Part shown: in pieces, positions 2,306-50,571 of the stretch
Position numbering within the stretch: position 1 is the stretch's first letter
Layout: the number at the start of each line of letters is the position of its first letter
NCBI GenBank assembly: GCA_008501735.1
Contig: QQUF01000053.1
Span: 124,001-188,000, forward strand
DNA length: 64,000 nucleotides
Direction: 5' to 3'
DNA from: Calditrichota bacterium
GTDB taxonomy: Bacteria; CLD3
Notes under the pieces: model-generated
What the model was told of the DNA's origin: nothing
The model's input: the letters and a program-made list of their open reading frames with translations, nothing else
Databases searched by the model: none
Position numbers and translations under genes: made by a program

Positions 2306-5300
2306 TTATTTGTTAGATCTTTGAATTTGGCCTCTTGTGCCATTAAGTTTTTCAATGTCTTGAATTGCATATTTTAACCAAGTTTCTTGCATTTTTGTGA
2401 GTTTACCTTCAATTTTTAATTGTTTGAAAGTATTCACAGACTGAGTAGAAGCTACAGGTAATCCATAAGGATTTGGAGTAGAAACTACAACAGAAGTAAC
2501 TTGATTTTGAGATTTAGAAGGAGCAACTACAGGAGCATCAGAATCAGCAGTTACATAATAATTAGTTTCAGTTGCAGCAACTCCTGCAGGGTCAGTCCAA
2601 GTAAGAACGTTTCCAGCAGAAATTGCAGTACTCCAAGGTCCATTAGGAGTAGCTGAAGTATAAACCCAGTAATTGTTCGCATTTGGAACAGCTGCCCAAG
2701 TTAAAGTTGCACCAGTAATCATTACAACTGGTGGATCTGGTTGAACTACAACATTGTTAGGGTCAATTCTAACTGACATATTACTACCTAAGAAAGGAGT
2801 ATCATTTGCCATTTGTAAACCATCAGCTGAACCACCTGAAATACCTACTGCAGATTGGTTAAGATTAGAAGCAGACATTACTTCGTAGTTCATTTCAATA
2901 ATTCCATTATCATACATAATAACTTGGAAAGTATTTCTTAATGGAGTAAGGTTGTTTGCGAAATAATCAGTTCTCCAAGGAACTTCGTCAAACTGAATTA
3001 TGTATCTACCATTTGCTACATCGTAATATTCAAGAATAGTTCCAAGTGCTAAATGTAAATCATCCCACCAAGGGAAAATCGCATTATTTGTATTTGTAAC
3101 GAGAGGGTTGTTTATCCAAGATGTTCCTGAGAAAACTCCACCGAAATTAATCCAACCATTTGCATTTACATTTCCGGTAGTATAGCTAGTACCGTAGAAT
3201 GGGAATGAGAATGGAAGAGTAATCGCAGAAGTTCCGTCGTCAGAATTAATAGCACCACCAGGAACAGGAGTTCCTAATCCGTTAATATCAAAGAAATCAA
3301 CAGGAATCGCACCGTCTAAACTGCTTGTCCAAGTATGCCCAAATGCATCAGGACCGCCAAAAGCTGGAACTGAAAAGTAAGTAGCTGTAAATGTATCATT
3401 TGCTGGGTTTTGGTCAATGTCATTTGTTTGGACTACAGTAGCACTAACAGTTTGAGAACCAGTTGCTACAGAAGTTGTATTGAAATACAATGTATCCATT
3501 GCACCAGAAGCAAGTCCTGTGAAAGAATCAGAAGCATCAGGAGTTCCATCGTTATCAAAATCAACATCAACAGTTCCGTCAGCAGCAGCAAGACTTAAGT
3601 TTGAAACAATAACACCAATTGAAAGAGGTGAATTACCAGCAGTTGTTGCAGGCATATCAAATCCTGTAATTCCAACATCAGCAGTTGGTAATGCAGTGTA
3701 ACCAGTTGCTAAAGTGTCATTCGATGTATCTCCGTCAACACCACTTGTAAGAGTAACAAATGCATTTGCTGAATATGCTCCAATTGTTGCAGGAGCAGAA
3801 GCAACGTTAACTGTTACAGTTGTTGTATCACCAGAAGCAAGACCTGTAAATGAATTATTACCATCAGCAATGTTGTCTCCGTCAATGTCAACTTCGACAT
3901 TTCCATCACCAGAAACACCACCAAGGTTAGTTACTTGAACATCAACATTCATTGGATTACCAACAAAAACTAATGCATCAGGAGTAACAGAGATAACTGC
4001 CAAATCTTCATTAGGAGTTACTGTGTAGCTAATTGAAGCGTCATTATCAGAAGGGTTACCATCTGTTCCACTTGTAAGAGTTGCAGTTGCAACAGCAGTA
4101 TAAGGTCCAGCAGTTCCAGGAGCAGTTGCATTAATTGTTAATGTAACAGATGCACCAGAAGCTAAACCTGCAAAAGTATCAGTTCCGTCAGCAACACCAT
4201 CGTTGTCAAGGTCAACTTCAACAGTTCCGTCAGCAACATTACTTCCAGTATTTGTTATTTCAACATCAAATGAAATTGGATTACTTGCAGGAGCTAAACC
4301 ACCATTAAGAGCAAAAGCAGTAACAGAAATATCATCAGCAGCATCAAAAATACTTACTTGGTCAAGAGCTGTGTCATATTCAAAATTAAAACCAGTAGAA
4401 CCTGAAATTGCTCTAAATCTAAACTGAACTGTATCACCTGCATAAGCAAGTAAAGAAACAATTGCATTTTCCCAAGGTGAAGCTTCGGTAGGTTGGAACT
4501 CACCAATTTGAGACCAAACACTTGAATCAGTAATACCCGTTGTAAGGTTAATTACATCTAAATGAAATTCACCTGTTGTATTAAGATTGTGCTTCATATG
4601 GAAAAAATAAGAAAGCTTAGGAGCAGCTAATGAACTTAAATCATAACAAATTGAAAGTGCATTGAAAACACTACCAAATGGAGGACCAGAAGTCTCTGTG
4701 TAAAGATAAAGTCCAGCACCGCCACCTTGTTCACTTGTATAATCTTGAGTAGGACCAGTTGCAGATGAACCTGTATTTCCACCAAAGACTGACCAGTTTT
4801 CGTCATCGGCAGTATCTTGAATCCAACCAGTAGTTATGTCAAATGCACCGTTTCCAGTTGCCCAAGTATCAAATGTTTCTAAGTAAGGATAAGTTGTAAC
4901 ACAAGCAGGAGTTACTGGGTAAACAACTCCTGAAGAGTCGTTTGAAGCATCTCCATCAACACCACTTGTAAGTGTTACAAAAGCAGAAGCCGTAACATTT
5001 CCAGCAGTTCCAGGGGCAGTTCCAGCGAAAGTTACAGTTTGAGTAGCACCAACTGCTAAACCAGAAATAGTTGTTAGGTCGTCATTAACACCATCGTCTT
5101 CAAAATCAATTTCTACTGTAATGTCAGCTGGAGCACCACCAAAATTCTGAACTTCAACATCAACATTAATTGCAGCACCAGCAGGAACTGGGTTTGGAGT
5201 AACTGTAACACTTACAACACCAGCGTCTTCGTTTGGAGTAACAGTGTAACCAACAGTTCCAACATTATTGTTCAAGTTTCCGTCAATACCGCTTGTCATT

Positions 5301-7453
5301 ACTGCAGTTGCAGTTGCAGTATAAGGTCCAGCAGTTGCAGGAGCAGTTGTGTTAATTGTAACAGTTGTACTTGCACCAGAAGCTAAACCTGTAAAAGAGG
5401 CAGTTCCATCAGCAACACCGTCAGAGTCAACATCAATTTCAATATCTCCGTCAGCAACGTTTGTTCCAAAGTTTGCTACTGTAACGTCAAAAGAGATTGG
5501 GTTACTTGCAGGAGCGACTCCGTTAAGAACAACATTTGAGATAGCAACGTTATCAGGTAGAACTTGTAAACCGATTCTAATAGCCAAATTATCTTCTACA
5601 AAAGGTCCGTTATCAACAATCAAGATTCCGTCATCACCAGCTTGGTTTTCCCAACCAACAGTTGCATTTAAAACATCATTCTCATCCATATCTAAATAAT
5701 GAATTTCTGCTGTTCCATCAATGTAAAGATGAATTTGGAAAAATAATGGAACTGATCCACCAAAGGCAACAACACCATTCCATTGAATGATTACTCTGTT
5801 GTTAGCTGCTGAGTCGTCTAAGAAAAGAACTTGTCCAGCAGAACTCGGATTTAAGTCATCCCAAAAAGCAGAAATTACACCATTTGGAACTGCCGCATTT
5901 GGCCAAGCTCCGTTAAAACCAAGAGAAGAGTTTCCGTTACCAGCACCAAAATTCATCCAACCGTTTGAACAAATATTAACAACTGTTTCATTTGTTCCGT
6001 AATAATTGAAGTTAAATGGTAATGTTTGAGTACCAAACGAATCGTCAGTTAAAGCTAAATCTATTGTTCCAGGATTACCTGAAATGTCAACAAAGTTAGC
6101 AGGAACTGTTCCGTCTAAACTACTTTCCCAAATGTAACCATAAGTATCAGGACCGCCAGAAGCAGGAACTACAATGTAAGAAGCTGTTCCAGAGTCATCA
6201 CTTGGGTCTTGGTCAATATCATTTGTTTGAGTAACAGTTGCCATAACAGTTGGAGTTCCTGAAGCTGGAGCTGTTGGGTTAAATGTAAGAGTTATTGCAC
6301 CACTTGAAGCTAATCCAGTAATTGATTGAGTATCATCAACGATACCATCATTTTCATAATCAATATCAACATTACCGTCAGCTGGGTTAAGACCAAGGTT
6401 TTCTACTGTAACATCTACAGCGAAAATAGAATTAGCACCTACTGAAGTAGGTACATTAACAGCAGTAACCGCCATATTTGAAGTAGGCAAAACATCGTAG
6501 GAAACATCACTTGTATCATTAGATAGATTGCCATCAACTCCACTTGTTAAAGTAATGGCTGCTGTTACAGTTTGGCTACCAAATGTTAATGGTACTGTAG
6601 CTGAAACATTGTAAGTCATTGCAGCTCCACCAGCTAAACCTGTAAAAGTTCCTGATGCATCAAAGATTCCGTCTCCATCAACATCTAAGTCAATGTTTCC
6701 ATCTGCAGTTAATCCACCTGTTCCGACATTAGAAATATTGATTCCGAAATCTTGTGTTTGACCTGCAAATGCAGGGTTTGGAGGAGTAATACTTGTTAAG
6801 AAAATATCTTCTGATGTTGGAGGATTTGCAATCAATCTGAGGTTTGCTCTATTAGGACTTGCAAAACCTGAGGCAGTTCCACATTGTGAACTTCCATCAG
6901 TATTGATATAAGTTGCTCCACCTGTGACAACAGAATATTCAGCCGAAGCATTTCCATTACTAACCCAAGGTGGAGTAAACATACAAGTTTCCACAACAAG
7001 GTTAGAAGTTCCGTCCCAAGTGAAAGGAGTATCTAAAGTAATCATATGCCAATCATTTGAAACAGTTACAGATTCTCCATTAATAGGACCATAAGAAGTT
7101 GTAAGTCCTGTTTCGTAAGTAGCTGTTAAAGCAGTTGTGCTTGTATTTTTCAAAGCAACAATAAATTCATTCAATGCTGGTACAGCATTCGGAGTTGTAA
7201 TGTAAAATCCAACTTCTGAAATCATTTCACCTGCAGTCATTCCTTCAGCTGTAAGCTCGGCAGCTGTGTAAAGATATTGGGTTCTTTGACTTTCATAGTA
7301 AGCACCTAAAGGATTTGGATAACTAGTTCCGCTATTTACTGCGGTTCCAGTTCCAATTGTGTAGGTTGCAGCAAATAAAGCTGAACTACTCAATGCGACT
7401 GTAACTAAAGCTGTTAAAGCAACTCTAGATGTCATTTTTCGGAGTTTTGTCAT
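2306..7453 (-). CDS. Giant secreted mosaic protein A (CARDB-like repeats, MAM-like and nidogen-like domains)
   Basis: 1715 aa, probably exported. A Lys/Arg-rich start and hydrophobic run end near ALFAA (about residue 29). Approximate order: unique beta domain 30-213; CARDB-like repeats 1-2 (214-432); nidogen-like domain 433-633 containing GWMNFGAGNG and FWDDLNP; repeats 3-4 (634-848); MAM-like jelly roll 849-1035; repeats 5-7 (1035-1363); second nidogen-like domain 1364-1565; FN3-like domain about 1570-1650 containing NNYWVYTSATPNGPW; short polar tail. Each repeat carries an acidic loop such as DVDGDGIFD, like calcium-binding DxDxDG loops. No T9SS sorting domain is seen at the C-terminus. The function is unknown; adhesion or a surface-layer role is inference. 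Long low-complexity antisense ORFs inside it are artefacts. Confidence 0.88.
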   Translation of the reverse strand: MTKLRKMTSRVALTALVTVALSSSALFAATYTIGTGTAVNSGTSYPNPLGAYYESQRTQYLYTAAELTAEGMTAGEMISEVGFYITTPNAVPALNEFIVALKNTSTTALTATYETGLTTSYGPINGESVTVSNDWHMITLDTPFTWDGTSNLVVETCMFTPPWVSNGNASAEYSVVTGGATYINTDGSSQCGTASGFASPNRANLRLIANPPTSEDIFLTSITPPNPAFAGQTQDFGINISNVGTGGLTADGNIDLDVDGDGIFDASGTFTGLAGGAAMTYNVSATVPLTFGSQTVTAAITLTSGVDGNLSNDTSDVSYDVLPTSNMAVTAVNVPTSVGANSIFAVDVTVENLGLNPADGNVDIDYENDGIVDDTQSITGLASSGAITLTFNPTAPASGTPTVMATVTQTNDIDQDPSDDSGTASYIVVPASGGPDTYGYIWESSLDGTVPANFVDISGNPGTIDLALTDDSFGTQTLPFNFNYYGTNETVVNICSNGWMNFGAGNGNSSLGFNGAWPNAAVPNGVISAFWDDLNPSSAGQVLFLDDSAANNRVIIQWNGVVAFGGSVPLFFQIHLYIDGTAEIHYLDMDENDVLNATVGWENQAGDDGILIVDNGPFVEDNLAIRIGLQVLPDNVAISNVVLNGVAPASNPISFDVTVANFGTNVADGDIEIDVDSDGVADGTASFTGLASGASTTVTINTTAPATAGPYTATATAVMTSGIDGNLNNNVGTVGYTVTPNEDAGVVSVTVTPNPVPAGAAINVDVEVQNFGGAPADITVEIDFEDDGVNDDLTTISGLAVGATQTVTFAGTAPGTAGNVTASAFVTLTSGVDGDASNDSSGVVYPVTPACVTTYPYLETFDTWATGNGAFDITTGWIQDTADDENWSVFGGNTGSSATGPTQDYTSEQGGGAGLYLYTETSGPPFGSVFNALSICYDLSSLAAPKLSYFFHMKHNLNTTGEFHLDVINLTTGITDSSVWSQIGEFQPTEASPWENAIVSLLAYAGDTVQFRFRAISGSTGFNFEYDTALDQVSIFDAADDISVTAFALNGGLAPASNPISFDVEITNTGSNVADGTVEVDLDNDGVADGTDTFAGLASGASVTLTINATAPGTAGPYTAVATATLTSGTDGNPSDNDASISYTVTPNEDLAVISVTPDALVFVGNPMNVDVQVTNLGGVSGDGNVEVDIDGDNIADGNNSFTGLASGDTTTVTVNVASAPATIGAYSANAFVTLTSGVDGDTSNDTLATGYTALPTADVGITGFDMPATTAGNSPLSIGVIVSNLSLAAADGTVDVDFDNDGTPDASDSFTGLASGAMDTLYFNTTSVATGSQTVSATVVQTNDIDQNPANDTFTATYFSVPAFGGPDAFGHTWTSSLDGAIPVDFFDINGLGTPVPGGAINSDDGTSAITLPFSFPFYGTSYTTGNVNANGWINFGGVFSGTSWINNPLVTNTNNAIFPWWDDLHLALGTILEYYDVANGRYIIQFDEVPWRTDYFANNLTPLRNTFQVIMYDNGIIEMNYEVMSASNLNQSAVGISGGSADGLQMANDTPFLGSNMSVRIDPNNVVVQPDPPVVMITGATLTWAAVPNANNYWVYTSATPNGPWSTAISAGNVLTWTDPAGVAATETNYYVTADSDAPVVAPSKSQNQVTSVVVSTPNPYGLPVASTQSVNTFKQLKIEGKLTKMQETWLKYAIQDIEKLNGTRGQIQRSNK

Positions 7454-7463
7454 TATGTTCCTT

Positions 7464-7569
7464 CCTTAAGAAAGTTTAAGGTTAAAAAATTTTGGAAATA
7501 AAAAACTTTTTACTTTTAGACCTTGGGGAGGGCTCAAGAAAATTTGTTTTTTACTTCCAAATCTTTAAA
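7464..7569 (-). promoter_or_regulatory. Conserved structured leader and promoter of giant gene A
   Basis: Read on the minus strand. A -10-like TTTAAA (7569-7564) is followed by a long stem, 7561-7546 pairing with 7506-7491: 16 bp with one G-U pair. The loop holds CTTGAGCCCTCCCCAAGG. A small hairpin, CCTTAA (7481-7476) with TTAAGG (7469-7464), then sits directly before the SD-like AAGGA and the ATG at 7453. The same arrangement precedes giant genes B and C. The element could act as RNA (5' stability or translational control) or as DNA (operator); the sequence alone does not decide. Confidence 0.65.
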
Positions 7570-7687: not shown

Positions 7688-7726
7688 AAAAAAAGCCGTT
7701 GAACATTAAAGTTCAACGGCTTTTTT
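7688..7726 (-). terminator. Rho-independent terminator of giant gene B
   Basis: AAAAGCCGTTGAAC (7691-7704) pairs perfectly with GTTCAACGGCTTTT (7711-7724) around a 6-nt loop, with A and T runs outside. It lies 41 bp beyond the stop of the minus-strand gene ending at 7767. The rest of the 313-bp gap 7454-7766 holds the leader of gene A and no ORF that I can support. Confidence 0.85.
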
Positions 7727-7766: not shown

Positions 7767-10700
7767 TTATTTCGAGTGTTCTACTTCAAATAAGTTTGGA
7801 TACATTGAGAGTAACCAAGTTTTCACATCTGCGTCAAGTAATCCTTGAGCTTCTAACTCTTTGTATTCTGCAAGCATTTCATCAGTAATTACAATTTGGT
7901 AGTTACTGTTGTTAGCAAGAGAGTTGTTACCTTTGTTAGAAGTTGGAGCAACTACAGGAGCATCAGTGTCAGCAGTTACGTAATAGAAAGGTTCAGCACT
8001 TGCTGCTCCTGCAGGGTCAGTCCAAGTAAGAACGTTTCCGACAGAAGTTGAAGTATTGAAAGGTCCATTAGGATTTGCTGATTGATAAACCCAATAGTTG
8101 TTTGCATTAGTAACAGCAGGCCAACTTAAGTCAGCTCCGTCAATTGTTACAACTGGAGGATCAACACTTGGAGCACCTAAATCATAAATAATGTTTCCAT
8201 TAAAGATTCTTGGAGTGATTGTTACACTAAAGTAACTTCCACCAGCACCTTCTTTGAACTGAATGTTAGCATCTTGTGATTGGATGTTACCAACAGCAGT
8301 TCCGTTAGTGTAGTTTACAGAACCATTCATTCTTGTAACATAGAATCCCTGAGTAGCACCAGCTGCAATTGGAACATTAATCAAGATTGGTAATTGAGTT
8401 GGAGTTCCATCATCTAGAGCAGTACTTGCAGAAGGAACACCAGTAATACTTCCAGCCATTGTCCAGTTAGCAGCATTAGTTTCATTACCAACATAAGTTC
8501 CACCACCTGTAAGATACCAAACTTCAAAATCTCCAACACCTGGATCAAAGTGAACGTCAAAGCAAGTAATTACAACATCATTGATTGCAGTAATATCAAA
8601 CATATTTCCTGCAGAACCATTACCAGAAGCAAAAGTTGTAGTCAAAGAATTGTTACCACAACCTGCAAGAGGAACAGTGTAACCTAAAGTTGCTGAATTG
8701 TTACTTGGATCTCCGTCACCAGCAAGAGTTTGAGTAACAGTTGCAGTGAAAGAACCTGCAACAGCAGCAGGAACAGTTGCAGTAACCATAATTGCTAAAG
8801 TATCACCAGGAGCAATTGGTCCATAAGCTTGACCAGTAATCTCAGGAGTTCCGTCAGTGTCAACATCAAAATCAAAAGTTCCTGAAGCAGGATTGATTCC
8901 GTTGTTCACAAGTTCAAAATCATAATTGTTTGTTGAACCGTCAGCAGGAGCAGTTGGTCCAGTAAGATTTTGAGCGGAAACATCGTCTGTTGGAATGAGT
9001 GTGTAAGTTGAAGTTGCAGTGTCATTACTTGGGTCACCGTCAACACCACTTGTTAAAGTTACTGTTGCAGCAACAGGAATAACTGTAAAAGGAGTTCCTG
9101 TACCTGCAGTAATTGAAGCTGAAACAGTTGTTGTAGCACCAGAAGCTAAACCAGTAAAGTTTGCACTTCCATCAGCAACACCGTCGTTGTCAACATCAAA
9201 GTCAACAGTTCCGTCTCCTGTACTTCCACCATTATTTGTAACATCAACACTAAATGTTGTTGTCATTCCAGAATAAGCATTTCCAACAATAATGTTAGCA
9301 GCTGATAAGTCTTCATTTGGTGCAACAACGTAATTTAAGTTTGCAGTATTGTCAGAAGGATTACCATCTGTTCCACTTGTTAAATTAGCAGTTGCAACAG
9401 CAGTAGCATTTCCTACAGCTATTGGAGCAGTTGCATTGATAGTTAATGTAACAGAAGCACCAGAAGCTAAACCAGTGAAAGTATCACTTCCATCAGAAAC
9501 ACCATCATTGTCAACATCAAGGTCAACAGTTCCGTCAGCAGCATTACTTCCTGTGTTTGTTATTTCAACATCAAAAGCAATTGGGTTACCAGAAGCGGAA
9601 GCTCCATTAAGAGAGAATGCAGTAACAGAAACATCATCAGCTGCATCAAAAATACTTACTTGGTCAAGACCAGTATCGTTATAGAAGTTTGTTCCACCAC
9701 CAACAATAGTTCTAAAGATAATTCTAACTGTATCGCCTGCATAAGGTAATAATGAGAGAATCTCATTTTCCCAAGGGTCAGCTTCAGCAGTTTGGAATTG
9801 TCCGATTAATGACCAAACACTTGAGTCAGTTACACCAGTTGTCAAGTTTTCGACATCAACGTGGAATTCACCAGCAGTTTGGTTATTGTGGAATGCGTGG
9901 TAGAAGAATGAAAGTTTTGGAGCAGCAAGTGCAGCCATATCAAAACAAATCGAAGTTATTGCAAAAACGTTACCAACAGCAGGACCAGAAGTCTCAGTGT
10001 AAAGATAAAGTCCACCACTGCCACCTTGTTCATTTGTGTAATCTTGAGTTGGTCCAGTTGGAGATGAACCTGTTGAACCACCAAAAACAGTCCAGTTTTG
10101 GTTATCATTTGTATTTTGAATCCAACCTGTTGTGATGTCAAATGCACCGTTTCCAGTTGGCCAAGTATCAAATGTTTCTAAATAAGGATAAGTTGTTACA
10201 CAACTTGGAGTAACTGCAAAGGTTACAGAACCTGTATTGTTAGAAGGATCTCCATCAACACCACTCTGTAAAGTGACTGCAACTGAAGCAGTAGCGTTTC
10301 CAGCAGTTCCTGGAGCAGTTGTGTTAAAAGTTGAAGTTCCAGTTGCACCAGAAGCTAAACCTGTAATGTTATCTGAAGCATCAACGATACCATCATCTTC
10401 GAAGTCAATTTCAACTAAAATGTCAGCAGGTGAAGCACCAAGATTCTGAACATCTACATCAAAGCTCATTGCAGAACCTGAAGGAACAGGGTCTGGAGTA
10501 GCAACAACACTTACAACTCCAATATCTTCACTTGGAGTAACTGTATAAACAGTTGAACCAGAGTTATCAGAAGTGTCGCCGTCAACTGCACTTGTAAGAG
10601 TTGCAGTTGCAGAAGCTGTGTAGTTTCCAATTGTTAAAGGAGCAACAGCAGAAACAGTAACTACTGTAGAAGTTCCTGAAGCTAAGCCAGTGAAAGAAGC

Positions 10701-13700
10701 ACTTCCATCATTAATACCATCATTATCAACATCAATGTCAATGTTTCCGTCAGCAGCATTCAAACCGAAGTTGTAAACTGTAACGTCAAAGTTAACTGCA
10801 GAACCAACAGAAGCAGCACCATTAAGTGCAACATCAGTAACTGCAATGTCATCAGTTCCTTCAGTAATACTTACGTGGTCAATTGCAGCATCACCTGCAC
10901 AACATCCACCATTTTTGATGTATCTGAAACGAACTTTTATAGTTTGTCCTACATAAGCTCCAAGACCAATTTTTGCAGATTCCCAAGGAGAAACTGTGAT
11001 ATCACTTGAAGTTTGAACTTGTCCATTTTGATTCCAAAGTGATGTACCTATAACAACATCATTTTCATCTAAAATATCAACGTGTAAATCTCCAATTAAA
11101 GTACCAAACATATGGTAATAAAATTTGAGAGTTGGTGAAGCAAGAGTTGTAAGGTTAAGACATCTTGAATCAAGAGTTGTGATTTCACCATTGACTCCAC
11201 CTGAAGTTTCAACGAACATATATTTTCCGCTTCCACCACCAAGTTGAGAAGTTACATCATTGTTTGGTCCTGTTGGTGAAGAAGGAGTTCCTAAATCATC
11301 AACTAACCAGTTGAAGCCTACTGTAGTTCCAGAAGCATTTGTCCAACCTCCAGCAACAGGTAAGTTTGCACCGTTTGTCCAAGTATCAAATGTTTCTAAG
11401 TAAGGGAAAGTTGCAACACAACCAGGAAGGACATCATAAAAATCTGTTCCTGTATCATTTGATGGGTCTTGGTCAACACTACTTGTTAAAAGCACTGCTG
11501 CTGAAACTGTGATTTGTCCACCTTGTGTAGGAGCAGTTGTGTTAAAAGTAACTGTTTGTGAAGCTGTTGAAGCTAAACCTGTGAGTGATTGTGTATCATC
11601 AACAATACCATCATTTTCATAATCAAGTGTTACATCAAGGTCAGCAGCTGTTTGACTATTGTTTGTTACAACAACATCAATTTGAACAGGATCACCAGGA
11701 TTTAATAAACCAGCTGGAGCTGTTACACTTGTAACTTCAACATCGTCTGTTGGTAAAACTGTAAAGTTCGCAGACCCTGTATCGTTTAATGGGTCAGAGT
11801 CTAAACCACTTGTTAAAACAACTGTTGCATCTGCTGTATAAGGACCAGCAATACCAGGAGCTGTTACTGTTACACTAACTGTTGTTGTTGTACCAAATGC
11901 CAAACCTGCAAATGAATTTGTTCCATCTGCAATACCGTCTCCGTCAATGTCAACATTAACATCACCGTCGGCTGCATTTTGTGCAAAGTTTTCAACTTCT
12001 ACATCAACATTAAAAATTGCATTTGTAAATACAGGAGGAACTACTGTTACAGAGTTGATTCCTACATCATCTGTTGGAGCATCGCCAACTGTTACTTGGT
12101 CAAGACCTGTGTCATTAACAAAGTTAGTTGGTCCACCAACAATACTTCTCCATCTTAATCTTACTTGGTCACCTGCGTGAGCAGCTAAAGAAGCAGAAAC
12201 TTTTTCCCAAGGGTCAGCTTCGGCACCTTGAAGTTGTCCGATTTGTGACCAAACACTCATATCCGTAAGACCTGTTGAAAGGTTAAGAACGTCTAAGTGA
12301 AATTCACCTGCTGTTTGGTTATCGTGAACCATATGAACATAAAATTGGACTTGAGGAGCAGTTAAGAAACTGAGGTCATAACAAGGTGAAATTACATTAA
12401 AAACAGTTCCTACAGCAGGACCTGAAGTTTCAGTGTAAAGATAAAGTCCTGAACCTAATCCTTGTTCAGTCGTGAAATCTTGGGTTGGTCCTGTGTTAAC
12501 TGAACCTGTATTTCCACCGAAAACAGTCCAGTTACCACCGTCTGCAGTGTCTTGTTCCCAACCTGTTGAAGCGTTAAAAGCTCCTGCACCAGTTGCAAAA
12601 GAATCAAAGTTTTCAACTGCAGGGAAAGTGATTGTACAAGTAGGAGTTACAGTATAAGTTGTAGAACCTGTATCATTGCTTGGTTCAGCATCAACAGCAC
12701 TTGTAAGAACGACTGTTGCACTTGCAGTGTAAACTGCTGCTGTTCCAGGAGCAGTTGTTAAAACTGCTACAGTTACAGTTGCACCAGAAGCCAAGCCTGT
12801 AAAATTGCCTGAAACATCAACAATACCATCATTGTCAATATCAACATCAACGTTTCCGTCTGCGGCAGTTAAACCATTATTTGTAACATCAACATTAATC
12901 GTTAAAGGAGAACCTGCAGCAGCTCCAGCCGAACTAACACTTGTAATTTCGACATCGTCTGTCGGAAGAACATTGTAGCCAGAACTTGTAGTGTCATTTG
13001 CAGTATTACCGTCAACACCACTTGTTAAAGTTACAGCAGCAGTTAATCCAGTATTACCAACTGTTCCAGGAGCAGTTGCACTAACCGTAACAACAGTTTG
13101 TGCTCCACCAGCAGCTAAACCAGTAAATGAACCAGTAGCATCAAAAATTCCATCACCATCAATATCAACATCAACGTTACCGTCAGCAGTTAACCCACCA
13201 GTTCCGATATTTGTTACTGTTACATCATAGTTTGTAAGTTGTCCAGCAAAAGCACTTCCTTGTGGAGAAACACCAATTGCAGCAACATCTTCATTTGCAG
13301 GTGAAACACCTTCAATCAAGAAGTCGTCAATGAACCAACCTTCTGTAGCATTTCCGATACCATCGATTGTGTCAAAACTGAATCTAATTTGAATTGTTCC
13401 CCAAGTTGGGTCAAGTGCTTGGACTACTTGAGTCCAGTTTCCTGCAGTAGTTAATGCTCCAGTATCAATATTTAATAAGAACGTAGAAAAGTTATCATTA
13501 CTGATTTGAAGTCTTTTTTGGTCATAAGTACCCGATTCTGTATTCCAGTTCTGTTGGAACTTTAATTCAGGGTTTTGATAGGCACCAACTGCAATTGATT
13601 GATTCAAGGTTACAAAACCAGCGTTTTGCAAACCACCATCATCATAGCTTAATCCGTTGTTGTAATTTAAGCAAGCAGTTCCTGCAAAAGGAACAGGGCT

Positions 13701-13922
13701 TCCTAAAACTGTTGACGGAGTTGCATCAACCGACCAAGTCGGAGCTCCAGCGGCTCCTGATGTCAGTGTTTGGTTGACCGTCCAATTTCCAATACCCGCT
13801 TCAAAATCATCTGAGAAAATAGTGGATGCTTGAGCAAAGACAGAGGAACTACTAAAAGCGACTGTTGCTAAAGTTGCAAGACTAAGTGCAACTTTAGAAG
13901 TCAAGTTTCTTGTTTGAAACAT
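7767..13922 (-). CDS. Giant secreted mosaic protein B (nine CARDB-like repeats, MAM-like domains)
   Basis: 2051 aa with an N-terminal signal peptide ending near SSSVFAQA (about residue 31). Approximate order: MAM-like jelly roll 31-208; repeats 1-2 (211-425); MAM-like 427-615; repeats 3-4 (616-833); MAM-like 832-1020; repeats 5-6 (1024-1240); MAM-like 1241-1428; repeats 7-9 (1426-1752); unique beta domain 1751-1920; FN3-like domain 1921-2000 containing NNYWVYQSANPNGPF and the shared AGNVLTWTDPAG-like segment; tail. Most repeats contain a DxDxDG loop and the phrase FTGLASGA. The third inner MAM-like domain and the repeat after it are almost identical to a block in protein C, suggesting exchange between paralogues. 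No T9SS sorting domain is seen. Function unknown; probably extracellular or cell-surface. Confidence 0.88.
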   Translation of the reverse strand: MFQTRNLTSKVALSLATLATVAFSSSSVFAQASTIFSDDFEAGIGNWTVNQTLTSGAAGAPTWSVDATPSTVLGSPVPFAGTACLNYNNGLSYDDGGLQNAGFVTLNQSIAVGAYQNPELKFQQNWNTESGTYDQKRLQISNDNFSTFLLNIDTGALTTAGNWTQVVQALDPTWGTIQIRFSFDTIDGIGNATEGWFIDDFLIEGVSPANEDVAAIGVSPQGSAFAGQLTNYDVTVTNIGTGGLTADGNVDVDIDGDGIFDATGSFTGLAAGGAQTVVTVSATAPGTVGNTGLTAAVTLTSGVDGNTANDTTSSGYNVLPTDDVEITSVSSAGAAAGSPLTINVDVTNNGLTAADGNVDVDIDNDGIVDVSGNFTGLASGATVTVAVLTTAPGTAAVYTASATVVLTSAVDAEPSNDTGSTTYTVTPTCTITFPAVENFDSFATGAGAFNASTGWEQDTADGGNWTVFGGNTGSVNTGPTQDFTTEQGLGSGLYLYTETSGPAVGTVFNVISPCYDLSFLTAPQVQFYVHMVHDNQTAGEFHLDVLNLSTGLTDMSVWSQIGQLQGAEADPWEKVSASLAAHAGDQVRLRWRSIVGGPTNFVNDTGLDQVTVGDAPTDDVGINSVTVVPPVFTNAIFNVDVEVENFAQNAADGDVNVDIDGDGIADGTNSFAGLAFGTTTTVSVTVTAPGIAGPYTADATVVLTSGLDSDPLNDTGSANFTVLPTDDVEVTSVTAPAGLLNPGDPVQIDVVVTNNSQTAADLDVTLDYENDGIVDDTQSLTGLASTASQTVTFNTTAPTQGGQITVSAAVLLTSSVDQDPSNDTGTDFYDVLPGCVATFPYLETFDTWTNGANLPVAGGWTNASGTTVGFNWLVDDLGTPSSPTGPNNDVTSQLGGGSGKYMFVETSGGVNGEITTLDSRCLNLTTLASPTLKFYYHMFGTLIGDLHVDILDENDVVIGTSLWNQNGQVQTSSDITVSPWESAKIGLGAYVGQTIKVRFRYIKNGGCCAGDAAIDHVSITEGTDDIAVTDVALNGAASVGSAVNFDVTVYNFGLNAADGNIDIDVDNDGINDGSASFTGLASGTSTVVTVSAVAPLTIGNYTASATATLTSAVDGDTSDNSGSTVYTVTPSEDIGVVSVVATPDPVPSGSAMSFDVDVQNLGASPADILVEIDFEDDGIVDASDNITGLASGATGTSTFNTTAPGTAGNATASVAVTLQSGVDGDPSNNTGSVTFAVTPSCVTTYPYLETFDTWPTGNGAFDITTGWIQNTNDNQNWTVFGGSTGSSPTGPTQDYTNEQGGSGGLYLYTETSGPAVGNVFAITSICFDMAALAAPKLSFFYHAFHNNQTAGEFHVDVENLTTGVTDSSVWSLIGQFQTAEADPWENEILSLLPYAGDTVRIIFRTIVGGGTNFYNDTGLDQVSIFDAADDVSVTAFSLNGASASGNPIAFDVEITNTGSNAADGTVDLDVDNDGVSDGSDTFTGLASGASVTLTINATAPIAVGNATAVATANLTSGTDGNPSDNTANLNYVVAPNEDLSAANIIVGNAYSGMTTTFSVDVTNNGGSTGDGTVDFDVDNDGVADGSANFTGLASGATTTVSASITAGTGTPFTVIPVAATVTLTSGVDGDPSNDTATSTYTLIPTDDVSAQNLTGPTAPADGSTNNYDFELVNNGINPASGTFDFDVDTDGTPEITGQAYGPIAPGDTLAIMVTATVPAAVAGSFTATVTQTLAGDGDPSNNSATLGYTVPLAGCGNNSLTTTFASGNGSAGNMFDITAINDVVITCFDVHFDPGVGDFEVWYLTGGGTYVGNETNAANWTMAGSITGVPSASTALDDGTPTQLPILINVPIAAGATQGFYVTRMNGSVNYTNGTAVGNIQSQDANIQFKEGAGGSYFSVTITPRIFNGNIIYDLGAPSVDPPVVTIDGADLSWPAVTNANNYWVYQSANPNGPFNTSTSVGNVLTWTDPAGAASAEPFYYVTADTDAPVVAPTSNKGNNSLANNSNYQIVITDEMLAEYKELEAQGLLDADVKTWLLSMYPNLFEVEHSK

Positions 13923-13931
13923 AGTTTTTTT

Positions 13932-14042
13932 CCTTAATTAAATCCTAAGGTTTGTTAAAAACTTATTGGAAATAAAAAACAATTTACTTTTGCACCTTGG
14001 GGAGGGTTCAAGCTAATTTTGTTTTTATTTCCAAAAGTTATA
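13932..14042 (-). promoter_or_regulatory. Conserved structured leader and promoter of giant gene B
   Basis: Minus strand: -10-like TATAAC (14042-14037), then the stem TTGGAAATAAAAAC (14034-14021) pairing with 13980-13966 (one extra A). The loop carries CTTGAACCCTCCCCAAGG, and the SD hairpin CCTTA/TAAGG spans 13950-13932. The only AAGGA near the ATG lies in the 3' arm of that hairpin, so translation could depend on its opening. An inverted repeat AATTCG-N7-CGAATT (14053-14071) lies just upstream, near the expected -33 region, and might be an operator. Confidence 0.65.
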
Positions 14043-14215
14043 AATGTAAATAAATTCGAGCAAAACGAATTTTCGTAAAAGTTACATTGTTGTTATAGCA
14101 AATTAAATTTTTCTTATCTAAGTCATTTCCGATATTGAATGAGTGAAATACCGACTAGAATAGAAACCAAAACCATACTTAAGAAATAGACCGCAATTAA
14201 ATTTAATTTTTAAGA

Positions 14216-14370: not shown

Positions 14371-17300
14371 CTAATGTTTTGTAGCATTAACTTTTTGAGT
14401 TTGCTTTTGAACATTTTCGATTTCTTCTTCAACTTGATTACTAAGCATTAATTGGAATGAAGAATTATTAGCTTTTTGCTTAGTGATTGTTGTTTTACTT
14501 ACATTTTGATTAACAACTGTAATCGTTGGATTACTATTCTTAGAAGAAGTAATCGGCGAAACAGGAACATCAGAATCTGCAGTTACATAGTAGAAAGGTT
14601 CTGTAGTTGCAGTTCCCGCAGGATCAGTCCAAGTAAGAACATTTCCAGCTGAAATAGCAGGACTCCAAGGACCATTTGGATTTGCAGAAGTGTAGACCCA
14701 ATAGTTGTTCGCGTTGTTAGAAGCTGGCCAACTTAAAGTTGCACCATCAATTGAAACAACAACATCATCAGGAGTAATTGCTCCGCAACCACCAACACGA
14801 AGCATTTGAATAAAATTAGCTCCGACAGTTGCTGTGTTTGTCCAATTTCCAACTCCGCCACCTAAAGGTGCGTAGTAAAAGATGTTTGCAAGTCCACCTG
14901 TAAGAGTACGACTGTCTTGGTCAACACCGATTGGGAAAGTTCCAACTGTACTTGCAGTCAATTGGTCTCCACCAAAATAAACTGTAGAACCAGCAGGGAA
15001 TTGTAGTGGATTAGCAGAAAGATCAAAAGTAATCCAAGTGTCTAACGGACTTATAGCTGCTAAAGCTGTATAAGTTGTAGGCGGAACTAATGTTTGGAGT
15101 AGAGTTCCAGGCTCGTTATTAGGTCCATCTGCATTCCAAGCTGAAACACTAAACTGTTCTGACATATCACCAGGAGTTCTTACCCAAATAATAATTTTGT
15201 CAATTGTAACAGCATTACAAAAGTCAAAACGATTTACAAAGGAACCTGTAGCAGTATTAAAACCTAAACCATCGTTAGTAGGATTAAGTCCGTCATCATA
15301 ACCAAATGCTTCAGTATCAATTGCAATATCATAAGTTGCAACATCATTAGAAGGATCTATATCACCTGCTAATTGAGTTGCTGCGGTCATTGTAACATTC
15401 CCAATAGCTTCGGCACTTGGGTCGAAAGAAGGGAAAGTTACTTGTGCAGATGCTAAACTTGCTAAGTTAGGAACGTTAACAGTTTGGTTGTAGTTCGTTC
15501 CAATTGTAGCATTTACATCAAATGAAACAGTGTTTCCACCATTGTTTGTAACTGTAAGAACTACATCGTAACAATCAATACAATTTCCAGCAACACTATA
15601 CCCAACATCAATACTTGTCAACTCAACTTCGTCATTAGCAATTGCTGGGGCTTCACGAACAGAGACTTGGTCTAGAGCAGTATCATTATAGAAGTTAGTA
15701 GCTCCACCAACAATCGTTCTGAATCTAAATCTAACAGTATTACCTGCATGTGCAGATAAAGATACAAGAGCTTCTTCCCAAGGTTGTGCTTCAGCAGTTT
15801 GGAATTGGCCGATTAATGACCAAACACTTGAATCAGTTATTCCTGTTGTTAAGTCAATAATATCAACGTGAAACTCACCAGCTGTTTGCCCATTATGGAA
15901 AGCGTGATAGAAGAAAGATAATTGAGGATCTGTTAATGAGAGTAAATCAAAACAATGCGAAGTGATTGAAAATACATTCCCAACTGCAGGTCCTGAAGTT
16001 TCTGTATAAAGATAAAGTCCTGAACCAAGACCTTGCTCAGCAGTGTAATCTTGAGTAGGACCAGTAGTTACAGAACCTGTACTTCCGCCAAAAACAGTCC
16101 AATTTTGGTTATCGTTAGTATCTTGAGTCCAACCTGTTGTGATGTCAAATGCACCATTACCAGTAGCCCAGGTATCAAAAGTTTCTGTGTAAGGGTAAAT
16201 TGTTTCACAAGAAGGAGTAACTGAGAAAGTTAAACTAGCAGTGTCATTAGAAGGATCTCCGTCAATACCACTTGTTAGTATAACTGTAGCTGAAGCTATG
16301 TAACTTCCTGCTGTCCCAGGTGATGTTGTAGAAAATGTTTCAGTTTGGGTTGCACCAGAAGCTAATCCTGAAATATTGCTTGAAGCATCAACTATACCGT
16401 CATTATCAAAATCAATGTCAACTTGAGCATCAATTACTGATCCGCCAAAATTCTGAACAGCAACATTAAAGTCCATTAAAGAACTTGAAGGAACAGGGTT
16501 TGGGTTTGCTGTTAAGGAAGTAATTCCCGCATCTTCGTTTGGAGTTACGGTGTAACCAACAGTTCCAGTGTTATTGTTTAAGTTTCCGTCAATACCACTT
16601 GTCATTACTGCAGTTGCTGTTGCTGTGAAAGGTCCAGCAGTTGCAGGAGCAGTTGTGTTAATTGTAACAGTTGTACTTGCACCAGAGGCTAAACCTACAA
16701 ATGCAGCAGTTCCGTCATCAATACCATCAGAGTCAATATCAATGTTGACATCTCCGTCAGCAACGTTTGTTCCGAAGTTTGCTACTGTAACGTCAAATGA
16801 AATTGGGTTACTTGCAGGAGCGACTCCGTTAAGAACAACATTTGAAACTGCAACGTTATCAGGTAAGATTTGTAAACCGATTCTTACAGCTAAGTTGTCA
16901 GAAACAAAAGGAGCATTGTCAGTAATTGCGATTCCATCATCACCAGCTTGGTTTTCCCAGCCAACAGTTGCACTTACAACATCGTTTTCATCCATATCTA
17001 AATAATGGAATTCGATTGTCCCGTCAGTGTAAAGATGAATTTGGAAAGACATTGGGACTGTTCCACCAAAGGCTACAACACCATTCCATTGAATGATTAC
17101 TCTGTTATTTGTCGCTGAGTCGTCTAAGTAAAGAACTTGCCCACCAGAACTTGGATTCAAGTCATCCCAGAAAGGTGAGACAACACCATTTGGAACTGCT
17201 GCATTTGGCCAAACTCCGTTAAAACCAAGAGAAGTGTTTCCGTTACCAGCACCAAAATTCATCCAACCGTTTGAACAAATATTAATAACAGTTTCATTTG

Positions 17301-20300
17301 TTCCATAATAATTGAAGTTAAAAGGTATTGTAACTGATGCGAAAGAATCATCAGTTAAATTTTGGTTGACTGTATTAGGATCACCTGAAATATCAACATA
17401 ATTAAAAGGTACTGTTCCGTCTAAACTACTTTCCCAAATATAACCATAAACATCAGGTCCACCTGATGCAGGAACTACATAAGTAGTAAAAGTAGAAGTA
17501 TTGTTTGAAAGGTCTCCGTCAATACCACTTGTCATATTTACAACAGCAGTAGAAATATTATTTCCACCAGTTGTTGGAGCATTTGTGTTGAATGTTAAAG
17601 TAGTTGAGTCGCCTGAGGCTAAACCTGTAAACCCTTGAGTATCATCAACAATGCCATCAGTGTCAAAATCAACTTCAACATTTCCATCAGCAGGAGAGCC
17701 ACCTTGATTTTTTACAGTAATATCTAAACTCATTGCTGAGCCTGAACCGATTGTCCCAGGTCCTGTAAATGCTGTAATTGCCAAATCTTCGTTAGGAGCA
17801 ACAGCATAAGGTAAGTTAGAAGTGTTATCAGCAGGATTTCCATCAGTTCCACTTGTTAAATTAGCGGTTATGACAGCTGTGTAAGTTGCTGCAGTTGCAG
17901 GAGCAATTGAATTAAGTGTAAAATTAACTGTGTTACCAGAAGCTAATGCTGTGAATGTATCACTGACATCAACAATTCCATCATTGTCAATATCGAGGTC
18001 AACATTTCCATCAGCAACATTACTTCCTGTATTTGTTACTTCAACATCAAAAGCAATTGGATTACCTGCCGAAGCAGCACCATTTACAGAAAATGCAGTA
18101 ACAGAAATATCATCAGCGGCATCAAAAATACTTACTTGGTCAAGACCTGTGTCATTGTAAAAATTAGTTGCACCACCAACAATTGTTCTAAACTGAATTC
18201 TAATTGTGCTACCAGCATAAGGAAGTAATGAAAGAACTTCATTTTCCCAAGGGTCAGCTTCAGCAGTTTGGAATTGTCCAATTAATGACCAAACACTTGA
18301 GTCGGTTACACCAGTTGTCATATTTTCAATATCAACGTGGAACTCACCGGCTGTTTGGTTATTGTGGAATGCGTGATAGAAGAAAGAAAGTTTTGGAGCA
18401 GTAAGTGCAGCCATATCAAAACAAATTGATGTGATTGCAAAAACATTACCAACAGCAGGACCAGAAGTCTCTGTGTAAAGATAATTTCCTGCAACACCTG
18501 TTTGCTCATTTGTATAATCTTGAGTTGGTCCAGTTGGACTTGAACCTGTGTTTCCAGCAAAAACAGTCCAGTTTTGGTTATCATTTGTATTTTGAATCCA
18601 ACCAGTAGTTACATCAAATGCACCGTTTCCTGTTGGCCAAGTATCAAATGTTTCTAAGTAAGGGAAAGCCGTAACACAACTTGGTGTAACCGCATAAATA
18701 GAGGTAGCTGTATCATTTGTTATATCTTGGTCAATACCACTTGTCATTGTTACTGTAGCAGAAACTGTAACGTTTCCAGCAGTTCCAGGTGCCGTTCCAT
18801 TGAAAGTCTCAGTTTGAGAAGCACCAGAAGCTAAGCCTGAAACATTACTTGAAGCATCAACAATACCATCATTTTCAAAGTCAATATCTACTGACATATC
18901 AGCAGAACTATTACCATTGTTTGTAACTACAACATCAAAACTTATTGCAGTTCCAGATGGAATTGGATTTGGAGTAGCTGTAATGCTTGTAACTTCAACA
19001 TCAGAAGTTGGGACAGTTGTATAATTTGTAGTTGCAACGTCATTTGTATTGTCTTGGTCAACCCCGGAAGTAAGAATTGCAGTTCCTGTTGCTGTGAAGT
19101 TTCCAACAGTTGCAGGAGAAGTTGCCACAATATTTACTGTTGTAGAAGCACCACCAACTAAACCTGTGAAAGTTCCAGTTGCATCAGTGATTCCGTCATT
19201 GTCAACATCAACGTCAACATTTCCATCTGCTGAAAGGAAACCATTATTTGTAACTACAACATCAAAAGTAGATTGTGCACCAGCAAATGCAGAAACATTA
19301 GTTATGCTTGTTGCTTCAACATCATCACCAGCTACAACGTCATAATTAGTCGCAGTCGTATTGTTGAAAGGTTTTTCATCTGTTGCACTTGTCATTGTTG
19401 CAGTAGCAGAAGCAGTGTAAGTTCCTAATGCCCCAGGAACTGTTCCTTGGATTTGGACTACAACTGTATCACCTGCTGCAAGACCTGCGAAAGTATCACT
19501 ACCATCTGCAAATCCATCATTGTCAATATCAAGGTCAACAGTTCCGTCTGCTACATTGAGTCCTTTATTTACAACCGTAATATCAGCTGTAACTGTTGAG
19601 TTAACTCCACCATTTGGAACGAATAAAGATGTAATAGCAACATCGTCATTTGCAGGAGTGTCATCTAAAGTTGCATTCCAAACTTGTGAGACTTCAAGAG
19701 CAGTTAAGGCACTTCCATAAAGTCTGAATTCGTCCATTGCTTGTCCAGCAGAAAGACAACTATTAGTTCCTCCACCTTGTGCTCCAACTGCAAAGTTGGA
19801 AACTCCTGTTCCTTGAATATTTAAAACTGGTTGTGCAACAGTATTATTCAGAACTCCATTTAAGTAAGCTCTAATCTCTGGAACTGAACTGTCGTAAACA
19901 AAAGTAACAGCTTGTGCAGGACCAGCTACTGGAGCTCCTCCTGTTACAAGAACATCAGTCATTCCACCACCACGAAGCATCCAGTTTCCTGCTCCAGCAA
20001 CTCCATTTGTGAAACAACGAAGTGAAGAAGCTGTAACGTCTCCAAGAATATAAATCAGAGTAGTTGGTGGACCGTTTGTGTAATCTACCCAGAAGTGCAT
20101 TGTCCAATCACCAGAGAGGTTTGTTTGCCAACCTGTGTCAACAAAATTTGTATTGGATGTTCCACCGATTCCAACTAAACCACCATTAAATTGTCCTGCT
20201 CCAGGAGTGAGAGTGTGTCCGTTCACAGTTGCATTTTGCGAACCAACAAATGGACTTGCTTCATTTAATGTAGTTGTGCCACCTGATTCATTAAATTTAT

Positions 20301-20415
20301 AATAAAGCATATCAGGGAATGTTTGTGCAAAAGCAGAAGAACTGCTCATTGCTACTGAACCTAAAACTGCGACACTTAAGGCAATTTTAGAGATGAGTCT
20401 TTTGGGGTAAACCAT
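14371..20415 (-). CDS. Giant secreted mosaic protein C (LamG-like domain, CARDB-like repeats, MAM-like and nidogen-like domains)
   Basis: 2014 aa with a signal peptide ending near SSSAFAQT. Approximate order: LamG/concanavalin-like domain 31-247 (YYKFNESGG, WTMHFWVDY, AMDEFRLYGSAL); repeats 1-3 (255-575); MAM-like 578-770; repeats 4-5 (767-985); nidogen-like 985-1187; repeats 6-7 (1185-1403); MAM-like 1402-1590; a diverged repeat 8 without the acidic loop (1592-1700); unique beta domain 1702-1885; FN3-like 1884-1960; Lys/Gln-rich tail. The nidogen-like domain with repeats 6-7 closely matches protein A, and the first MAM-like domain closely matches protein B. LamG-like domains often bind glycans, so surface adhesion is a reasonable but unproven guess. 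No T9SS sorting domain is seen. Confidence 0.88.
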   Translation of the reverse strand: MVYPKRLISKIALSVAVLGSVAMSSSSAFAQTFPDMLYYKFNESGGTTTLNEASPFVGSQNATVNGHTLTPGAGQFNGGLVGIGGTSNTNFVDTGWQTNLSGDWTMHFWVDYTNGPPTTLIYILGDVTASSLRCFTNGVAGAGNWMLRGGGMTDVLVTGGAPVAGPAQAVTFVYDSSVPEIRAYLNGVLNNTVAQPVLNIQGTGVSNFAVGAQGGGTNSCLSAGQAMDEFRLYGSALTALEVSQVWNATLDDTPANDDVAITSLFVPNGGVNSTVTADITVVNKGLNVADGTVDLDIDNDGFADGSDTFAGLAAGDTVVVQIQGTVPGALGTYTASATATMTSATDEKPFNNTTATNYDVVAGDDVEATSITNVSAFAGAQSTFDVVVTNNGFLSADGNVDVDVDNDGITDATGTFTGLVGGASTTVNIVATSPATVGNFTATGTAILTSGVDQDNTNDVATTNYTTVPTSDVEVTSITATPNPIPSGTAISFDVVVTNNGNSSADMSVDIDFENDGIVDASSNVSGLASGASQTETFNGTAPGTAGNVTVSATVTMTSGIDQDITNDTATSIYAVTPSCVTAFPYLETFDTWPTGNGAFDVTTGWIQNTNDNQNWTVFAGNTGSSPTGPTQDYTNEQTGVAGNYLYTETSGPAVGNVFAITSICFDMAALTAPKLSFFYHAFHNNQTAGEFHVDIENMTTGVTDSSVWSLIGQFQTAEADPWENEVLSLLPYAGSTIRIQFRTIVGGATNFYNDTGLDQVSIFDAADDISVTAFSVNGAASAGNPIAFDVEVTNTGSNVADGNVDLDIDNDGIVDVSDTFTALASGNTVNFTLNSIAPATAATYTAVITANLTSGTDGNPADNTSNLPYAVAPNEDLAITAFTGPGTIGSGSAMSLDITVKNQGGSPADGNVEVDFDTDGIVDDTQGFTGLASGDSTTLTFNTNAPTTGGNNISTAVVNMTSGIDGDLSNNTSTFTTYVVPASGGPDVYGYIWESSLDGTVPFNYVDISGDPNTVNQNLTDDSFASVTIPFNFNYYGTNETVINICSNGWMNFGAGNGNTSLGFNGVWPNAAVPNGVVSPFWDDLNPSSGGQVLYLDDSATNNRVIIQWNGVVAFGGTVPMSFQIHLYTDGTIEFHYLDMDENDVVSATVGWENQAGDDGIAITDNAPFVSDNLAVRIGLQILPDNVAVSNVVLNGVAPASNPISFDVTVANFGTNVADGDVNIDIDSDGIDDGTAAFVGLASGASTTVTINTTAPATAGPFTATATAVMTSGIDGNLNNNTGTVGYTVTPNEDAGITSLTANPNPVPSSSLMDFNVAVQNFGGSVIDAQVDIDFDNDGIVDASSNISGLASGATQTETFSTTSPGTAGSYIASATVILTSGIDGDPSNDTASLTFSVTPSCETIYPYTETFDTWATGNGAFDITTGWTQDTNDNQNWTVFGGSTGSVTTGPTQDYTAEQGLGSGLYLYTETSGPAVGNVFSITSHCFDLLSLTDPQLSFFYHAFHNGQTAGEFHVDIIDLTTGITDSSVWSLIGQFQTAEAQPWEEALVSLSAHAGNTVRFRFRTIVGGATNFYNDTALDQVSVREAPAIANDEVELTSIDVGYSVAGNCIDCYDVVLTVTNNGGNTVSFDVNATIGTNYNQTVNVPNLASLASAQVTFPSFDPSAEAIGNVTMTAATQLAGDIDPSNDVATYDIAIDTEAFGYDDGLNPTNDGLGFNTATGSFVNRFDFCNAVTIDKIIIWVRTPGDMSEQFSVSAWNADGPNNEPGTLLQTLVPPTTYTALAAISPLDTWITFDLSANPLQFPAGSTVYFGGDQLTASTVGTFPIGVDQDSRTLTGGLANIFYYAPLGGGVGNWTNTATVGANFIQMLRVGGCGAITPDDVVVSIDGATLSWPASNNANNYWVYTSANPNGPWSPAISAGNVLTWTDPAGTATTEPFYYVTADSDVPVSPITSSKNSNPTITVVNQNVSKTTITKQKANNSSFQLMLSNQVEEEIENVQKQTQKVNATKH

Positions 20416-20425
20416 TGTAATTGTT

Positions 20426-20534
20426 CCTTAATTAAACCTAAGGTTTAGACAAAAATTTTTGGCTAATAAAAATATTTTACTTTGTGCCTTGGGGTGGGTT
20501 CAAGCTTATTTATTTTTTATTGCCAAAATTTATA
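20426..20534 (-). promoter_or_regulatory. Conserved structured leader and promoter of giant gene C
   Basis: Minus strand: -10-like TATAAA (20534-20529), then the stem TTTTGGCAATAAAAAATA (20528-20511) pairing with 20474-20457 with small bulges. The loop carries CTTGAACCCACCCCAAGG, and an SD hairpin CCTTA/TAAGG spans 20443-20426. Compared with the A and B copies, an A-U pair in the stem is replaced by a C-G pair (GGAA/TTCC becomes GGCA/TGCC). This compensatory change supports a conserved hairpin. Beyond the leader, up to the next stop at 20679, nothing else is seen. Confidence 0.65.
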
Positions 20535-20678
20535 AAAGCTAAATGTAATTTTAAAAAAATATAAATCTAGCTCTACCTAATAAAGTTTGTGCATAAAACT
20601 AATAAAAACAAAATTAATGTTTTGGTCAAGTTTAATTTTGTTCTTATTAGTTTTAGATGTGTGAGGATTGAAAATTTA

Positions 20679-27815: not shown

Positions 27816-27830
27816 CGTAAAATTTTATGA

Positions 27831-27860
27831 ACCTGAAAGGTTTTAAAACCTTTCAGGTTA
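27831..27860. repeat. Perfect 30-bp palindrome after porV
   Basis: AACCTGAAAGGTTTT is followed directly by its exact reverse complement AAAACCTTTCAGGTT, with no loop. It lies 15 bp after the porV stop. It could be a repetitive palindromic unit or a weak bidirectional terminator; no second full copy was found in the window. Confidence 0.8.
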
Positions 27861-34639: not shown

Positions 34640-34657
34640 TTGCGGACTTTAGTCCGT
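34640..34657. repeat. Single copy of the GGACTTTAGTCC palindromic repeat family
   Basis: TTGCGGACTTTAGTCCGT in the 178-bp gap 34573-34750. It matches the left arm of the longer inverted repeat at 50514-50571 and is related to that at 45908-45964. The rest of the gap holds no ORF. Confidence 0.7.
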
Positions 34658-45907: not shown

Positions 45908-45964
45908 GGGATTACCGACTTTAGTCGGTTTGTAAAATGAAGAACCGACTAAAGTCGGCAATCC
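45908..45964. repeat. Inverted repeat of the CCGACTTTAGTCGG family
   Basis: GGATTACCGACTTTAGTCGG (from 45909) and CCGACTAAAGTCGGCAATCC (to 45964) form two arms that pair over about 21 bp, and each arm is itself a short palindrome. Related copies are at 34640-34657 and 50514-50571, where the inner bases are swapped (CGGACTTTAGTCCG). A partial copy lies in the coding region near 31100. Confidence 0.8.
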
Positions 45965-50513: not shown

Positions 50514-50571
50514 AGGATTGCGGACTTTAGTCCGTTTTTTAGCAAAGTAAGGGGTTAAAGTCCGCAATCCT
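50514..50571. repeat. Inverted repeat of the CGGACTTTAGTCCG family
   Basis: AGGATTGCGGACTTTAG (50514-50530) pairs with TTAAAGTCCGCAATCCT (50555-50571), with a T-run in the loop. It is the same element as at 34640-34657 and a variant of 45908-45964. It lies between the hypothetical gene and serS and could end transcription of the former. Confidence 0.8.

Follow-up and report, generated by a model that had tools for sequence, protein, structure and literature searches.

A Short C-rich Core before Giant and Other Exported-Protein Genes of Two Related Bacteria, Probably a Shared Switch for Cell-Surface Proteins

Giant Genes and Their Leaders

The DNA analysed here, referred to as the window, is a 64,000-nucleotide stretch from a Calditrichota bacterium (GenBank assembly GCA_008501735.1, contig QQUF01000053.1, positions 124,001 to 188,000 of the forward strand), in which three giant genes, A, B and C, lie on the minus strand (Table 1). 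Their products, 1715-2051 aa in length, have signal peptides together with MAM, CARDB and DUF11 domains, and neighbouring genes, for a C25 peptidase and for PorV-type proteins, are of the kind found with type IX secretion. A leader of about 110 nt common to the three genes had been described in an original prediction, and it has been confirmed at the places given there and with the same layout, namely a -10-like box, an AT-rich stem, a loop with CTTGARCCCWCCCCAAGG and an SD hairpin. The near-invariance claimed for the loop likewise stood, with the 18-mers of all three leaders carrying the predicted sequence. When up to one mismatch is allowed, an 11-nt core within this loop, CCTCCCCAAGG, is found three times in the window, each time inside one of the leaders, as compared to 0.26 matches expected. 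The presence of an intrinsic terminator between genes B and A indicates that A at least has its own promoter. The layout had also been thought to correspond to no described element, and in agreement with this a check of the window against 4227 Rfam families (release 15) gave none at the gathering threshold, a permissive Rfam search yielding only chance-level matches. Upstream of leader C, at window positions 20594-20655, there is also a 24-nt inverted repeat, 96% complementary and with a 14-nt loop.

Table 1. Positions of the leader elements, genes and terminator in the window.
Feature	Positions	Strand	Sequence or remark
Leader A, 5' arm of stem	7546-7562	-	ATTTGGAAGTAAAAAAC
Leader A, loop motif	7521-7538	-	CTTGAGCCCTCCCCAAGG
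Leader A, 3' arm of stem	7491-7506	-	GTTTTTTATTTCCAAA
Gene A	2306-7453	-	Exported CARDB/MAM protein, 1715 aa
Intrinsic terminator between genes B and A	7689-7726	-	
Leader B, candidate promoter	14033-14064	-	TTTG-N20-TAACTTTT, Bacteroidota type, 1 mismatch
Leader B, 5' arm of long stem	14020-14036	-	TTTTGGAAATAAAAACA; stem p = 0.004 against shuffles
Leader B, loop motif	13995-14012	-	CTTGAACCCTCCCCAAGG; core at 13995-14005
Leader B, 3' arm of stem	13966-13980	-	GTTTTTTATTTCCAA
Leader B, small hairpin over SD	13931-13950	-	CCUUAG...UUAAGG, predicted fold; SD AAGGA at 13931-13935
Gene B	7767-13922	-	Exported MAM/CARDB protein, 2051 aa
Leader C, 5' arm of stem	20512-20528	-	TTTTGGCAATAAAAAAT
Leader C, loop motif	20487-20504	-	CTTGAACCCACCCCAAGG, T to A variant of core
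Leader C, 3' arm of stem	20457-20474	-	TATTTTTATTAGCCAAAA
Gene C	14371-20415	-	Exported CARDB/MAM protein, 2014 aa

Giant MAM/CARDB/DUF11 genes occur in this genome as two tandem arrays 30 kb apart, C-B-A in the window (2306-22314) and E-D outside it (G000:C48:95114-107490). A fourth leader of the same kind, D, is located 30 kb away at G000:C48:101445 and precedes the gene for a MAM/CARDB product of 2085 aa. In the fifth giant gene, E, the core is present, the strong stem is absent and the leader has diverged. An alignment of A-D gave pairwise identities of at most 0.44 upstream, of 0.76-0.82 starting exactly at the -10/-7 box of the candidate promoter, and of 0.58-0.77 through the signal peptide, after which identity drops; conservation within this module is slightly higher in the leader than in the coding portion. 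As the homology spans the region from the -10 box to the signal peptide, the four leaders represent duplicated, paralogous promoter-leader-signal-peptide modules. Leader and N-terminal coding sequence are near-identical between C and D, which suggests a recent duplication or conversion.

Repeats of other kinds have been observed as well. Imperfect hairpins with GGACTTTAGTCC / CGACTTTAGTCG in common are found at window positions 34644-34655, 45909-45964 and 50514-50571, and this repeat, with up to two mismatches, gave 11 matches where 3.7 were expected; it is possibly a REP-like intergenic repeat. An inverted repeat, AACCTGAAAGGTT...AACCTTTCAGGTT or a close form of it, is present at two distant places (window 27830-27859 and L142 near position 1560) and is probably a recurring terminator.

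Distribution of the Core

The core has six sites in this 4.14-Mb genome (A, B, C as a one-base variant, D, E, and a further site, G) and four in a genome of the sister genus (F, H, I, J). In the giant genes it is lengthened to 18 nt, and the 4.14-Mb genome has five copies of the 18-mer, E matching in a shortened form. All ten sites, exact or with the C variant, are intergenic and lie 5' of genes whose products have signal peptides as judged by inspection, at about 40-105 nt from the start codon. Eight are in the sense orientation relative to the gene and two, which constitute one orthologous locus (G/H), are inverted. The element had been described from the giant genes alone but is not specific to them, since in addition to A-E (giant MAM/CARDB) the core precedes genes for a GEVED-containing protein (J), for small exported proteins of one family (F and I) and for a 272-aa exported protein (G/H). 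Wherever a credible promoter was found, the core is downstream of it, the predicted promoters in B, D, F, G and H ending 6-36 nt upstream of the core. Cores with one or two mismatches in the two genomes fall almost entirely within genes, the two intergenic exceptions resembling SD regions, so that the exact core is essentially confined to these leaders.

Beyond these two genomes, no clear core site was detected in the seven remaining genomes of the class, where the matches examined were in genes or at background level. When the contigs of all GTDB species were searched for the 18-mer, 20 matches were obtained, one of which is the sister genome; as for the others, the two examined and the organisms named (Peribacillus, Alphaproteobacteria etc.) look like chance. 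One motif match was found in viral contigs, inside a gene, and none in phage and plasmid records. Paralogues of F, I and J that do not have the motif occur in both genomes, which rules out the motif as a general leader of one protein family. The leaders of motif-less relatives of F and I carry CUCUCCUUA or CUCCUCCUGAG, complementary to their own SD (L144 upstream of 1419, minus strand; L145 upstream of 913, plus strand), and sequestration of the SD may be widespread in the lineage. Occurring before at least 10 exported-protein genes in two related bacteria, the core is probably an undescribed shared switch for cell-surface proteins.

Stems Enclosing the Core

The core can fold by itself as CCU-CCCCA-AGG, with the next outward pair being C-G in F and A-U in I and J, and its asymmetric centre, CCCCA, is invariant at all sites. 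When the enclosing stems were compared to dinucleotide shuffles with 40-nt flanks, those of A, B and D gave p values of 0.001-0.004, that of C being marginal (0.042). The earlier claim that pairing is kept while the stem sequence changes holds in that such changes are real, but within A-D they are small, and in three copies alone not significant. The difference between GGAA/TTCC in A and B and the corresponding stretch in C was confirmed, although the C form is GGC(A)A/TTAGCC with a bulged A; it constitutes a single event dividing A/B from C/D, besides which there are one C-G/U-A pair and one G-U. Among A-D, RNAalifold detected two pairs changed on both sides, its covariation term being unfavourable (+0.38). 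One promoter reading for B, that with the Bacteroidota-type -7 box, would place the transcription start inside the 5' arm and leave the covarying GG(A/C)A untranscribed.

The persistence of the stem with changing sequence is better supported by sites I and J than by A-D. At these two sites of the sister genus, before unrelated genes, long stems surround the core with arm sequences wholly different from those of A-D (ACCAAAAACATTTTCA/TTGAAAACAGTTTTTGGT in I, p = 0.006 against shuffles; AAAAATTAAAGC/GCTTTAATTTTT in J, p = 0.007). A Fisher test over five independent sense lineages, with A-D counted as one lineage, gave p values of 0.0001-0.0018 with shuffles as the null and of 0.002-0.012 with matched 5' regions from the two genomes, a null that rests on 43 upstream regions; the overall spread depends on the null and on the representative taken for A-D. 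Compared to all noncoding stretches, for which intergenic stretches of the loci analysed stood in for the whole genome, the stemmed sites reached p values of only 0.011-0.114, noncoding DNA being AT-rich and hairpin-prone. No significant enclosing stem was found at four of the ten sites (E, F, G and H), and the absence at the sense sites E and F makes the stem a frequent feature and not a universal one.

The Inverted Sites

G and H are orthologous, one in each genus, and in the direction of the gene the motif reads CCTTGGGGAGGGTTCAAG. Given that the inverted orientation is found at this one orthologous gene, the G/H leader contains the motif as its exact reverse complement, CCUUGGGGAGGGUUCAAG. 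In G, a promoter TTGACA-17-TAAAAT ends 13 nt before the motif, and in H a promoter TTTG-N19-TATCTTTG, a perfect match to the Bacteroidota-type consensus (PMC7366714), ends 6 nt before it, which should place the motif close to the very start of both transcripts. Identity between G and H is 0.75 from the motif to the SD, that is, over the whole 5' UTR, as compared to 0.38 over the 60 nt upstream on the promoter side. Both leaders have a hairpin, GGGUUCAAG/CUUGAA(C/U)(U)C, with a variable loop and conserved arms in which a C to U change keeps the pairing. The conservation of the whole untranslated stretch, and not of the promoter side, points to RNA. In predicted folds, a CCUU of the G/H leader can pair with its own SD, and the motif is partly single-stranded before the conserved hairpin.

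The G/H leader is antisense to the loop of A-D over 18 nt, with one G-U position in A and one mismatch in C, and to at least 12 nt of the other sense leaders. The duplexes predicted between sense leaders and G or H have energies of -26 to -43 kcal/mol, values that follow directly from the complementarity, which is itself a necessary result of the inversion. Complementarity alone does not distinguish between RNA pairing and a DNA site that functions in both orientations, and with the core identical in both genomes there is no informative variation for compensatory change between pairing partners.

Possible Modes of Action

The core lies before signal-peptide genes, and we infer that it acts as RNA in the 5' UTR. 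The explanation tentatively preferred is that of an RNA element in the 5' UTRs of a surface-protein regulon belonging to a single bacterial family, with a C-rich box in the loop that possibly pairs with the G-rich leader of G/H. In the giant genes, I and J, the CCU-CCCCA-AGG hairpin would sit on a long AT-rich stem close to where the mRNA begins, and the loop would display its C-rich box for base pairing. The best candidate for a partner, and the only one seen, is the leader of G, or of H in the sister genus; a pairing of 12-18 bp could couple the translation or stability of surface-protein mRNAs to the G/H transcript, and binding of the C-rich loop could also free the SD of G/H. As would be expected of RNAs that pair in trans, complementary sequences are found in two leaders of one cell, in both genera. 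An inverted motif is not predicted by a strand-specific RNA loop unless the G/H leader is its pairing partner. Counting against action as RNA are the occurrence of both orientations, where a structured cis-regulatory RNA would have a fixed one, along with the four stem-less sites, the frequency of stems in an AT-rich genome, the restriction of the motif to two genomes and the motif-less paralogues of F, I and J. Hfq was found in neither of the two genomes, a chaperone of this type being usual but not obligatory for trans-pairing RNAs, and each genome has one RRM protein with a glycine/arginine-rich tail (G000:C50:21011-21220 and G001:C190:16983-17195). That the G/H leader, antisense to the displayed loops, forms with them an mRNA-to-mRNA network, in which a single transcript sets the output of a whole group of adhesin-like proteins through contact between loops, neither Hfq nor a dedicated sRNA being needed, is a more specific proposal and an unlikely one.

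A DNA operator is the main alternative, realistic if doubtful. Here a putative transcription factor would bind CCTCCCCAAGG just downstream of, or overlapping, the transcription start, the stems of A-D having been inherited by duplication and those of I and J being AT-rich chance structures. Both motif orientations at the same kind of place are explained without further assumption, and the absence of a stem at four sites also suits an operator; the promoters predicted in B, D, F, G and H place the core at a usual operator position, and CCT-N5-AGG is an inverted repeat that extends to 5 bp in F, I and J. A short orientation-free site near the promoters of a coherent gene set, before signal-peptide genes in ten of ten cases, is also what an operator would look like. 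Nonetheless, the invariant asymmetric centre would be unusual for a symmetric dimer site, the conservation of the G/H 5' UTR reaches to the SD, beyond any operator, and enclosing stems recur in three lineages.

Stem-loops of the ompA type, known from Escherichia coli, are stabilising structures at the 5' end of mRNA, and a hairpin of this kind, on abundant surface-protein mRNAs, may have spread with the duplicated promoter-leader-signal-peptide module, the motif having no partner. The extent of the A-D homology, exactly from the -10 box to the signal peptide, fits this, as do a stem that starts near the predicted 5' end and the 5' hairpins of G and H; the likeness to ompA is that a surface-protein mRNA has a stem-loop close to its 5' end. 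Such a hairpin needs no invariant loop, yet here the loop is invariant and more conserved than the stem, is present in E and F where the stem is missing, and turns up again before unrelated genes in another genus, so that this explanation appears rather improbable. It is very improbable that the leaders are alike by chance or only through recent gene duplication: A-D are clearly paralogous modules, C and D being nearly identical, but for the core this is contradicted by its retention in the diverged leader of E and in the non-homologous leaders and genes of F, I, J, G and H, across two genera. Finally, a ribosome-stalling leader peptide read through the motif (TTG AAC CCT CCC CAA GGT..., giving NPPQG), for which a TTG-started frame in A-D (a 62-aa mechanical ORF in D) and the slow translation of proline pairs could be cited, is hardly credible and was rejected, given that the start is replaced by TTA in E and TTC in F, that no SD precedes the TTG, that in I a stop codon stands directly before the frame, that start codon or frame is missing in J as well, and that the inverted G/H site cannot encode NPPQG.

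Comparison with Known Systems and Significance

With regard to the RNA element preferred above, comparable C-rich loops are known from Staphylococcus aureus, where UCCC boxes in the hairpin loops of RNAIII and the Rsa sRNAs contact G-rich sequences in other RNAs (reviewed in PMC3861533). Common to both is an accessible C-rich loop with the capacity to pair with another RNA at a G-rich sequence resembling an SD; in the present case, known from sequence, the loop is located in mRNA leaders instead of a separate sRNA, and its complement is 5' in another mRNA leader, overlapping an SD only partly. In Bacteroides, the RRM protein RbpB and sRNAs control outer-membrane proteins (PMC11697453). The FopS/GibS and RbpB system of Bacteroides thetaiotaomicron would resemble the one described here in that RRM-protein bacteria use a common short seed to control many outer-membrane protein mRNAs at their 5' end (PMC11697453). 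FopS, however, is a family of sRNAs present in multiple copies, which pair close to the start codon, whereas here the repeated element is in mRNA leaders and the sole complementary sequence is one mRNA leader. A 5'-UTR hairpin with an invariant loop before a set of genes is likewise found in Rfam cis-regulatory leader families, none of which matches in the window at the gathering threshold.

Sequence by itself has been enough to define a small regulon, made up of giant adhesin-like proteins and other exported ones, in an Hfq-free and little-studied lineage that has type IX secretion genes. The core provides one testable site for the joint switching of these surface proteins. If the two orientations do reflect RNA pairing, mRNA leaders would regulate each other directly, a mode of control rarely documented in bacteria.
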